In this document: positions 2,697-35,996 of the stretch, in pieces | Layout: the number at the start of each line of letters is the position of its first letter | Position numbering within the stretch: the stretch's first letter is position 1 | Notes under the pieces: generated by a model | Told to the model about the DNA's origin: nothing | The model's database searches: none | The model's input: the letters and a program-made list of their open reading frames with translations, nothing else | Program-made: the position numbers and the translations under genes | Origin: an uncultured Nitrospiraceae bacterium | GTDB lineage: Bacteria; Nitrospirota; Thermodesulfovibrionia; Thermodesulfovibrionales; Dissulfurispiraceae | Direction of reading: 5' to 3' | Assembly (NCBI GenBank): GCA_903822005.1 | Contig: CAIJNL010000016.1 | Span: 61,184-125,183 of the forward strand | Length of the DNA stretch: 64,000 nt

Positions 2697-5174
2697 TCAG
2701 GGCTGGCCGGTGTCCAGGATAAGTCTTATCTTTGTCAGCAGCTCTTTAGGCGACACCGGCTTTGATATGAACTGCCTTCCCTCAGCAACTATTCCCTTGC
2801 TTCTCACCACGTCTCCGGTATAGCCGCTCATAAATACGACTCTTGCGCCGGGGCTGATTTTTCTTATCTCATCAAAAGCTTCCCTGCCTCCCTTGTGAGG
2901 CATTACCACATCCATAAGCACGAGGCTGATATGGTCCTTCTGTTCCATGAATTTATTGACGGCGTCCCGCCCATCTCCGGCTTCGAGAACCTTGTATCCG
3001 TATTCTTCGAGCATGCCCTTCAACGACTCTCTTGTCGTCTGTTCATCTTCTGCGACAAGTATGACTTCGGCCCCGCCTTTTAACGGCAGAATATCAGCGG
3101 ATTCGGAGATTGAAGCGTTAATACTCAGCATCGGCAGATACATCCTGAAGGTAGTGCCTTTTTGTGCTTCACTGTATACATCTATATAACCGCCATGCTG
3201 TTTGATAATGCCGTAGACGATGGCAAGGCCGAGCCCGGTGCCCTTGCCGACCTCCTTGGTAGTAAAAAAAGGATCGAATATCTTGTTCCTTGTATTATCA
3301 TCCATGCCCGAACCGGTATCCTCGACCTGTATGAGGGCATAGCGGCCTGGCTTTCCATGGCCATGCAGCTTTATGAATTCGTCATCCATAAACATAACTG
3401 ATGTGCTGATCGACAGGGTCCCGCCTTCGGGCATGGCGTCCCTTGCGTTTGTAGCAAGGTTGACGAGTATCTGATCGAGCTGAATGCTGTCGGTCAGTAT
3501 CACGATGTCATCACCCGACAGGCCGATGTCAAGCTTTATGTCCTCACCTATAACCCTTGCTATCAGCATGCAGGTATTACTTATGATCTCATTCAGTTTC
3601 ATGGGCCGTACGTTGATCACCTGTTTCCTGCTGAACGCAAGCAGGCTGCCTGTGAGTTTTGATGCCTTGTCAGCCAGCTCAAACAGTTTTGAGAGATGTT
3701 TTCTGGCGGGATCATCCTCCTGCATCTTCATCTGGGCAAGCGTGGTGAAGCCTATCATTGCGCTGAGGATATTGTTGAAGTCATGCGCTACTCCCCCAGC
3801 CAGCTGACCGACAGCCTCTGTTTTCTGGGCATGCTGCAGCTGTTCCTCAAGCTTTTTCTGTTCGGTTATATCGTATATGGTGCCCTGGATAAAGGCGGGA
3901 TTCCCGGATTCGTCACATTTGTTCTGGATCAGCTCCTTTATCCATCGCATCTGGCCGTCCTTTCGCAGTATGCGGTACTCACGTTCTATCGAGTAATTGG
4001 GTATGCTTTGCAGATCAGCTATGTTTTCGTAAAGTTTTGGAATATCGTCGGGGTGGACTATCTCGTGCCATCGTACTTTTCTCGACATGAATTCCTCTCC
4101 CGTGTATCCGGTTATCTTCTCGGTAGTGCCATGGAAGAAGAGGGGCTTCAAATCTATAGTGCGCTTAAAGGCCACGCCGGGAAAGTCTTCCAGGAACAGG
4201 CGGTATCGCTCTTCGCTTTCCCTCTGTGCATTTTCGGCATTCTTGCGTTCAGTGATGTCTCTTATCATGCCGTCGTACGCGACGAGCTCAGCCGCTTCAT
4301 TAAAGGAAGGCACGATTGTATTGCGCACCCAGATTACCGTACCGTTTTTGTGAATGAGCCGGTGCTCAAGCGGAATTACAGGATTTCCGGATATTGCGAG
4401 GTTTATCTGCCGCAGAACGGCATCACGGTCTGCTTCATACACCATCTGAAACCACAGGTTGTGGTCGGCATCGTATTCTTCGGATGAATATCCGGTGACA
4501 GCGATACAGGCTGGTCCATGTTTTGTCGAAACGGCCTTACCGGCCTCGACACTGACCGTATATATATAATCTGTGACCGACTCGATCAGGCGCCTGTAAC
4601 GCTCCTCGCTTTTCAGCAGGGACTCTTTTGTCTCGATTACCTTCAAGGCATGTGCGGCGAGGTCTGATATGAAGCGGACGAGTGCCTTGTCGTATGATAT
4701 TATATACTCCACTTTTTCCCGGCTGAATACCGGCGTTTTTTCAAGCGCGGCGATATACGCGTCTTTGTCAAAACCGAACTCATCCGCCTGGCGAATGAAC
4801 TGCTCGCGGTCAATAACTTCATCGTCATAGAAAAATTGTGACAGGAATAGCGTTGCGAGATGGCGTCCTCCAACAATAATGGGCAGTGCTATGTGCCACA
4901 TCCCATTTTTGCATCTGTACTGCATAGAGTCCGCGGCGCCGGGATTCGAATTGATGAGAAGGTCACTCTCCAGGCAGCGTTGATGCGATATTGGATTGGC
5001 ACGATGGAATTGATCACAGATGTCGGAACGTCCGGCAACAATGACAAATGTCGAGTCAATGGCATCGGCAATGCTGATAGGCAACCCGCTGGCACGGAAG
5101 TTGGCATCAGCCAGTTTCCGGATGAGTGACATGTCCAGCAGATCGGGGAGGCGATAGTCACGAGTCTTCATCAT
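2697..5174 (-). CDS. PocR-PAS-PAS hybrid sensor histidine kinase with receiver domain
   Basis: This 825-residue cytoplasmic signalling protein has no clear membrane segment. The order is a PocR-type sensory domain (about 10-180, with several Cys residues), a PAS domain (about 190-312), a second PAS with PAC (about 322-440), HisKA with phospho-acceptor His464 in GGVAHDFNN, a HATPase domain (about 565-685, motifs NARDA, DTGSGM and GTGLGL), and a C-terminal receiver (about 704-820, phosphorylatable Asp755 in VLMDVV). PocR domains sense small molecules such as diols in other systems; the ligand here is unknown. No partner regulator lies beside it. A GGAG site stands 4-5 nt before the first of two ATG codons. 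Confidence 0.93.
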   Translation of the reverse strand: MMKTRDYRLPDLLDMSLIRKLADANFRASGLPISIADAIDSTFVIVAGRSDICDQFHRANPISHQRCLESDLLINSNPGAADSMQYRCKNGMWHIALPIIVGGRHLATLFLSQFFYDDEVIDREQFIRQADEFGFDKDAYIAALEKTPVFSREKVEYIISYDKALVRFISDLAAHALKVIETKESLLKSEERYRRLIESVTDYIYTVSVEAGKAVSTKHGPACIAVTGYSSEEYDADHNLWFQMVYEADRDAVLRQINLAISGNPVIPLEHRLIHKNGTVIWVRNTIVPSFNEAAELVAYDGMIRDITERKNAENAQRESEERYRLFLEDFPGVAFKRTIDLKPLFFHGTTEKITGYTGEEFMSRKVRWHEIVHPDDIPKLYENIADLQSIPNYSIEREYRILRKDGQMRWIKELIQNKCDESGNPAFIQGTIYDITEQKKLEEQLQHAQKTEAVGQLAGGVAHDFNNILSAMIGFTTLAQMKMQEDDPARKHLSKLFELADKASKLTGSLLAFSRKQVINVRPMKLNEIISNTCMLIARVIGEDIKLDIGLSGDDIVILTDSIQLDQILVNLATNARDAMPEGGTLSISTSVMFMDDEFIKLHGHGKPGRYALIQVEDTGSGMDDNTRNKIFDPFFTTKEVGKGTGLGLAIVYGIIKQHGGYIDVYSEAQKGTTFRMYLPMLSINASISESADILPLKGGAEVILVAEDEQTTRESLKGMLEEYGYKVLEAGDGRDAVNKFMEQKDHISLVLMDVVMPHKGGREAFDEIRKISPGARVVFMSGYTGDVVRSKGIVAEGRQFISKPVSPKELLTKIRLILDTGQP

Positions 5175-20800: not shown

Positions 20801-20874
20801 ACTGCCTCCTTATAATATTATCTTGTATTATATATACCAATTTTCCGGTAAATCTCAAATATTTAGAGGGACGG

Positions 20875-21015
20875 CATGGACAACCGATTCGATGTCTCGG
20901 TGTGACCTTCCTATTGTCTCTATGTGTCATATACAACGGCGACGCTGCGCTGTCGATACGGCCGCCATTGACGGCTTTCAAGTATAATAGCTGTCGCGGA
21001 AGGCGGTTGTCTTTG
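20875..21015 (-). repeat. MITE-like element, copy 3 (inverted orientation)
   Basis: This 141-bp intergenic element is related to two copies near 34.6-35.0 kb. On the plus strand it begins CATGGACAACCGATTC and continues GATGTCTCGGTGTGACC, the same end sequence as the others with about 28 of 33 bases matching. The opposite end reads CAAAGACAACCGCC on the minus strand, so imperfect terminal inverted repeats are present. Its interior contains a 34-bp core (GTATCGACAGCGC.GCGTCG) also found at 34752-34785. Confidence 0.6.
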
Positions 21016-34332: not shown

Positions 34333-34571
34333 ATGCCCTCCTTAATTCTTTCAACAAGTAACTGATGCTATAGAAACAGAATATAGCAAAATGCGTGCCT
34401 CTCGTAAATATCATTGAATAATAAGGATAAAATAATAGTGCGGGTACAGGAGGCGCGGCAAAGCGTCATTATATTGGCATTATTTTCCTACTATATTTCA
34501 ACGAGAAGGCAAAAATTTCCGCTATTTTGTGATTTTGGTTACACTTCACAACGGCTTTTGTTTATCTACGT

Positions 34572-34708
34572 CAAGGGCAATTGCCTCTTGTCTCGCTGAA
34601 TTAGACCACTTTGCCTAAACAACCGCATAGTCACAAAGACGCACACCAATATAGCCTGTTTATAATCTAAGGGAGGGTCACACCGAGACATCGAGTCAGC
34701 TGCCCTTG
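34572..34708 (+). repeat. MITE-like element, copy 1 (137 bp, terminal inverted repeats)
   Basis: It begins CAAGGGCAATTGCCTCTTG and ends with the complement of CAAGGGCAGCTGACTC. The two ends agree over about 27 bp with one short gap: CAAGGGCA, TG, CTC, TGTCTCG and TG are shared. It contains no ORF. Copy 2 (34909-35045) has the same length and orientation. No target-site duplication is evident. Confidence 0.65.
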
Positions 34709-34732
34709 CCTTGTCACATGGTGTCTAAGTTT

Positions 34733-34790
34733 ATAGCCGGGAATGGCGGCAGTATCGACAGCGCCGCGTCGCCGTTGTATATGACAAATG
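34733..34790 (+). repeat. Conserved core shared with the element at 20.9 kb
   Basis: The stretch TATCGACAGCGCCGCGTCG and the following CCGTTGTATATGACA recur on the minus strand inside 20875-21015, with about four differences over about 45 bp. It contains a short hairpin CGAC/GTCG. Reading left to right, the frame NGGSIDSAASPLYMT is open here, and NGGRIDSAASPLYMT in the other copy, but no start or ribosome binding site supports translation. Confidence 0.55.
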
Positions 34791-34908
34791 TAGAAGAATT
34801 GTTAGCGTTCTGTCTGATCCGGCGTGTATAGAAGATACCCACGATGATTCAGCAAGCCGAGATGCGGCTGCCATTTTCGGCATGATTATTAAGATATGAA
34901 CAGGCTGC

Positions 34909-35045
34909 CAAGTGCAACTGCCTCTTGTCTCGCTGAATGAGATCACTTTGACGGATTTACCGCATTATCTGAAAGGCGCATTATATATTTTGCTGTTCAG
35001 TCTCGCAAGGAAGGTCACACCGAGACATCGAGTCAGCTGCCCTTG
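34909..35045 (+). repeat. MITE-like element, copy 2 (137 bp, terminal inverted repeats)
   Basis: It begins CAAGTGCAACTGCCTCTTG and ends GACATCGAGTCAGCTGCCC followed by TTG. Both ends match copy 1 almost perfectly. The interior has diverged but keeps ACCGCAT and AAAG.CGCA at the same places. Length is exactly 137 bp, as in copy 1. Confidence 0.65.
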
Positions 35046-35099
35046 TCAGCATCATATTTTTGTCCATATTATCTTTTAATTCCTATTTTTTATGCGAAT

Positions 35100-35912: not shown

Positions 35913-35955
35913 ACAATAGCGGATCAGCGGATGACGGCGTAACGTTAGTTATATA

Positions 35956-35996
35956 AAACAAAACAGGGGACTGGGAATCGTCCCCTGTTTTGTTTT
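35956..35996 (+). terminator. Strong terminator after the FrdX-like gene
   Basis: AAACAAAACAGGGGAC and GTCCCCTGTTTTGTTT form a near-perfect 16-bp stem around an 8-nt loop, with further T residues behind it. Confidence 0.9.

Follow-up and report, generated by a model that had tools for sequence, protein, structure and literature searches.

The window, by which we mean the whole 64,000-nucleotide stretch of uncultured Nitrospiraceae DNA analyzed here, contains a patch in which two copies of an element, A, flank an inverted homologous unit, S1. We think it rather probable that these are structure-selected, non-autonomous elements of ~180 bp that are widespread in one Nitrospirota family and spread in trans as a folded single strand. 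As judged from the alignments, what is preserved by evolution is the fold rather than the letters: the stems stay paired while both of their sides change.

Results

The sequence-only reading of this patch had described two 137-bp copies in direct orientation at 34572-34708 and 34909-35045, and this was borne out (start-to-start spacing 337; 78% identity over 137 bp, E 4e-23). With the paired outer arm added to these cores, A copy 1 occupies 34565..34715 and A copy 2 34902..35052, both on the minus strand. The former is assigned by the A-family profile (38 full copies), by arm pairing and by a covariance model of A, R1 (143.6 bits on the minus strand vs 23.4 on the plus), and the latter by its identity to copy 1, the profile, the covariance model and the tree. 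The patch had been read as two elements, but the stretch between them is a third, inverted and homologous unit: S1, on the plus strand at 34731..34886, was identified by nhmmer and the covariance model R2 (match 34735-34882, 155.9 bits), its reverse complement is homologous to A, and it is also matched by R1 (33 bits, E 3e-7). Positions 34735-34882 match many other loci in the same genome. S1 stands head-to-head with A copy 1, with 26 bp between the units. We define as R the strand that reads S1 as written and A reverse-complemented; in the window, this folded strand is the minus strand for both A copies and the plus strand for S1. In the family tree the two A copies do not group as sisters, and they therefore probably arrived independently of each other instead of arising by duplication on the spot.

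At 20865..20980 on the minus strand, elsewhere in the window, an S1 5' arm and an A 5' arm have been joined and the core is gone (R2, 57 bits), which looks like a deletion inside a former doublet. A separate feature lies at 35955-35996, directly after a ferredoxin-domain gene, where a perfect 17-nt inverted repeat (AAAACAAAACAGGGGAC / GTCCCCTGTTTTGTTTT) coincides with a sub-threshold match to Rfam sraA and is probably a terminator.

Used as a query, the patch aligned to 45 places in its own genome (3.23 Mb in 48 contigs, rated 100% complete). An iterated nhmmer profile search over the stretches around these places gathered 39 near full-length A copies, 38 of which were taken into an alignment with almost no indels and a mean column identity of 80%; the resulting tree is starlike. 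A profile seeded with S1 recovers A copies too, on the opposite strand, and another partner family, S2 (as at L037:1220-1370), pairs with A at other loci. Since R2, built from S1 copies alone, matches A copies at E ~1e-9, and R1 conversely finds S1, we regard A, S1 and S2 as homologous.

At most paired loci of this genome, A and S lie head-to-head with their R 5' ends facing, the exceptions being two tail-to-tail loci (L011 and L028). The distance from A to S1 in the head-to-head doublets is 32-36 bp, with 26 bp in the window, and this near-constant spacing suggests that new units insert selectively next to a copy already there or that the doublet has a function as such. The idea that S1 and S2 each travel with an A lineage of their own was rejected, as partner labels are unclustered on the A tree (values as low arose in 162 and 437 of 500 shuffles). 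Together with the separate placement of the two window copies, this indicates that doublets have been repeatedly assembled or reshuffled.

Among 100 relatives, the A model matched the window's own genome alone, and the exact A core motif had no match in 84,980 other species genomes or in IMG/VR; the wide distribution is thus shown by the covariance models and by a second core pattern. The S1 model gave one match in a same-genus genome, G001, which led to a G001 subfamily with copies of its own. The model of this subfamily, R3, produced 17 matching rows in G001 (some of them the reverse strand of the same copy), seven in G002 and others in G005, G006, G010, G011 and G013, all of the same family, so that related elements occur in at least six further genomes of that family. 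R3 also detects one diverged copy in the window's own genome (L159), where in addition a truncated G001-type core adjoins an A-like element (L088:1990-2031), meaning that both subfamilies coexist there. The core pattern of the G010/G013/G006 type, which we call the F family, was found in 20 stretches among the 84,980 species genomes and in none of IMG/VR. All titles naming a lineage give Nitrospirae or Thermodesulfovibrionales, mostly the latter, and one metagenome-assembled genome is labeled "uncultured bacterium". The copies in G010 and G013 have the same sequences as copies in the isolates Yes70-02 and FK1.bin72, which would make the window's genome, being of the same family, a member of the Thermodesulfovibrionales. 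No Rfam 15 covariance model matched the elements at gathering threshold, the weak matches being to hairpin-driven miRNA models only, and nothing on point was found in the literature on this bacterial group and on mobile structured RNAs. The elements are a previously uncatalogued hairpin class, spread between genes in one Nitrospirota group.

The inverted ends, earlier put at about 27 bp, do exist, but they are longer than that: they are the two arms of one interrupted stem of ~35 bp, which runs beyond the ends first reported (in the window to about 34565/34715 and 34902/35052) and is broken by single-nucleotide mismatches whose places are fixed. This stem closes a partly conserved core of ~85-110 nt. 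The ends had also been thought better conserved than the inside, but conservation does not peak at the tips first reported; these drift in a paired fashion, and it is the inner arm, TGTCTCG/CGAGACA, that is invariant or nearly so. The letters of the outer arm vary from copy to copy and yet pair, and some ~34-bp arms are near-perfect but unrelated in sequence between copies. Double-sided changes were counted in 16 of 31 pairs in A (shuffle mean 9.8), 13 of 29 in S1 (5.1) and 24 of 34 in the G001 family (11.9); in each case none of 500 shuffles was as high, and the counts are far above those of slid controls. Folded singly, the window copies have only a moderate advantage over shuffles (z -1.7 to -2.7; S1 -2.74).

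The two strands are not equivalent. The ratio of G-U to A-C pairs on strand R is 79:31 for A, 47:5 for S1, 35:2 for S2 and 49:3 for the F family. For the last three, the pairs had been picked from folds of R, a procedure that favors G-U; those of A alone were set by hand. RNAalifold likewise favors R over the opposite strand for S1 and S2. Such an excess on one strand argues that the fold of that strand is selected, and it thus appears that the R-strand fold, as RNA or as single-stranded DNA, is what is kept.

Empty sites, for which a search had been proposed, were found in the same-genus genome: at tRNA-Leu/glnS, at larB/rimI and upstream of gpsA, A or A with S1 is present in the window's own genome and absent from the orthologous G001 site, while at L128 the situation is reversed. 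These are differences of presence and absence, to be read as gain or loss alike, and they imply that copies have moved. Insertion of each core into a pre-existing palindrome was considered and is not supported at the glnS empty site. The F family presents a contrast: several of its elements lie at one shared site in different species, flanked by proteins with 76-90% identity, a pattern suggestive of long retention and perhaps of some function for the host. In one gap, between phosphodiesterase-like and metallo-beta-lactamase-like genes, the elements at L189 and at L198/L207 have a common core with different outer arms, each of them paired; this could mean rewriting of the arms on the spot or two separate arrivals in this gap. 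Two metagenome-assembled genomes look almost identical in the element and the sequence next to it (L198:5285-5505 and L207:6400-6620) in spite of flanking proteins that are only ~80% identical, for which strong constraint, conversion or transfer may be responsible.

All 38 loci examined in the window's own genome lie in gaps between open reading frames. A gene is called to the left and to the right of 37 of them; 21 of these gene pairs are co-directional, 10 are convergent and 6 are divergent, and no orientation rule was detected for the elements of this genome (28/24 vs 9/11, p 0.6). In the F family, the stop codon is the end turned toward the element in 20 of 24 neighbors on its R 3' side, in most cases within ~10 bp (gap near 0), as compared with 10 of 24 on its R 5' side; where the gene pair is co-directional, R mostly runs antisense to the gene that it abuts. 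This stop-codon adjacency is a lead pointing to a possible 3'-end role or insertion preference in that family. A recurring neighbor gene was sought at 20 F-family loci, and only orthologous sites recur.

Neither a transposase whose ends match nor a target duplication or an intermediate came to light. Target duplications were looked for by eye around the copies, whose ends are hard to fix since the arms pair outwards, and at the L010 locus only host genes lie between neighboring copies. The window's own genome encodes two full-length RAYT-like Y1 proteins, scoring just below the NCBIfam cut-off. Inspection of 18 RAYT loci (these 2 and 16 in relatives) revealed an element near none of them, and many are bracketed by inverted repeats of their own, of the GGGGTCAGGTCTTG or GGGGACAG type, so that RAYT is not supported as the driver. 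The RAYT-flanking repeats of this bacterial family are a separate REP-like system; examples of the GGGGTCAGGTCTTG or GGGGACAG/GGGGACGG type are found at L155:2950-3019 and 3825-3893 and at L209, L211, L212, L215, L216, L221 and L223. A perfect 14-bp inverted repeat near a RAYT gene (L155:1461-1510; ACCCCGTTAGAGAT / ATCTCTAACGGGGT) is unrelated to the elements. Y1 matches are weakly associated with them, occurring in 7 of 8 genomes with R3 matches (E<0.001) vs 8 of 16 other genomes of the same family.

Discussion

Starting from the dispersed homologous subfamilies, the site differences, the paired change of the arms and the strand bias observed above, we infer that the elements would be copied in trans while R is single-stranded (as DNA or as a transcript) and folded. 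A foreign enzyme would then recognize their shape and inner core, and not the sequences of the tips. If so, the arms would be free to drift for as long as pairing holds, perhaps aided by template-switch correction during replication. Against this model count the transposase, target duplication and intermediate that were looked for in vain, the copies kept at shared sites between species, the moderate folding advantage of the single window copies and the choice of S1, S2 and F pairs from folds of R. It is also possible, albeit doubtful, that they represent a new class of mobile element in one Nitrospirota group, recognized by its three-dimensional shape, with a ~35-bp stem that is free in sequence, a mobilizing enzyme outside the known ones and doublets that arise by insertion at a measured distance from an existing copy.

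Other explanations have to be weighed against this model. That these are REP/REPIN-type elements, moved by RAYT or another Y1 transposase acting on folded single-stranded DNA, would agree with their inverted doublets, known from REPINs (PMC3116915), with the two RAYT-like proteins of the genome and with the weak association of Y1 matches with R3-positive genomes; we nevertheless consider it unlikely, given the 0/18 RAYT loci with an element, the GGGGTCAGGTCTTG or GGGGACAG-type repeats that many of these loci carry instead, the unit size of ~180 bp rather than 20-40 bp, and the fixed unpaired foot, which is not seen here. A SINE-like retroposon, which a reverse transcriptase copies from RNA, could likewise produce dispersed copies without an open reading frame and a bias toward one folded strand. 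It was rejected, and we regard it as very improbable indeed, because a genome rated 100% complete has no match to the reverse transcriptase domain (RVT_1, PF00078).

Alternatively, the elements could be maintained by the host as an RNA or 3'-end element (a boundary, an antisense RNA or a control of termination or decay) that duplicates only occasionally. The strand-specific fold, the F-family copies abutting stop codons and the several copies at orthologous sites across species are all consistent with such a role, to which we assign a low probability, since R mostly lies antisense to the gene next to it in F-family co-directional pairs, the window's own genome follows no orientation rule and same-genus genomes differ in their sets of copies. 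Replication itself offers a further explanation, in that template switching can create and maintain hairpins (PMC8794818) and could keep palindromes perfect in the absence of any selection on the fold. This would account for near-perfect arms that are unrelated between copies; it predicts no one-strand excess of G-U over A-C, however, and leaves the conservation of the core across species unexplained, and we therefore find it decidedly improbable.

How do the elements relate to systems already described? The proposal that they are non-autonomous mobile elements or a structured intergenic repeat family stands, in view of 39 A copies, empty sites and covariation; neither a lack of further copies nor ends at chance level, either of which had been named as counting against it, was encountered. 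The label MITE-like fits less well: inverted arms exist, but the tips vary with compensation, the best conserved part is internal, a third member occupies the gap and no matching transposase was found. With REPINs and BIMEs (PMC3116915, PMC3733652) the elements share an intergenic location, non-autonomy, inverted doublets, single-strand hairpins and lineage-specific subfamilies. A REP, in contrast, is a palindrome of 20-40 bp with an unpaired GTAG or CGTC foot, whereas here units of ~137-180 bp have a core and no fixed unpaired foot, the outermost arm being paired and variable (a G/CCGTC-like tip is common in A but is paired), doublet partners come from different subfamilies, and a link to RAYT genes is lacking. 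The bcr1-type repeats of Bacillus cereus (PMC6542083, PMC2267715), with a unit listed as 147-167 bp, are similar in size, tens of copies, group specificity, lack of coding capacity, predicted common RNA structure and mobile features. They differ, by description, in belonging to another phylum and in their TTTAT target motif, which was not noticed at the flanks here, and the present elements stand apart in their long stem with paired sequence turnover and in homologous subfamilies across a bacterial family. The enterobacterial ERIC and RU-1 (127 bp) repeats (PMC2759123) are alike in length, imperfect palindrome, MITE-like character and intergenic position; here, unlike there, arm sequence turns over between copies and species with pairing kept. 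Our best reading is thus that the elements are analogous to REPINs and bcr1 and, by the features tested (for bcr1 by description), are members of neither. What is new is that homology extends across the clade while the arms are free in sequence and the doublets mix subfamilies.

Taken together, an unannotated structured family is present in many genomes of this group. It constitutes a natural experiment, with numerous independent copies whose stems are free in sequence but bound to pair, and it permits direct tests on two questions: whether selection or template switching during replication lets long hairpins persist, and how non-autonomous elements spread when no partner can be identified.
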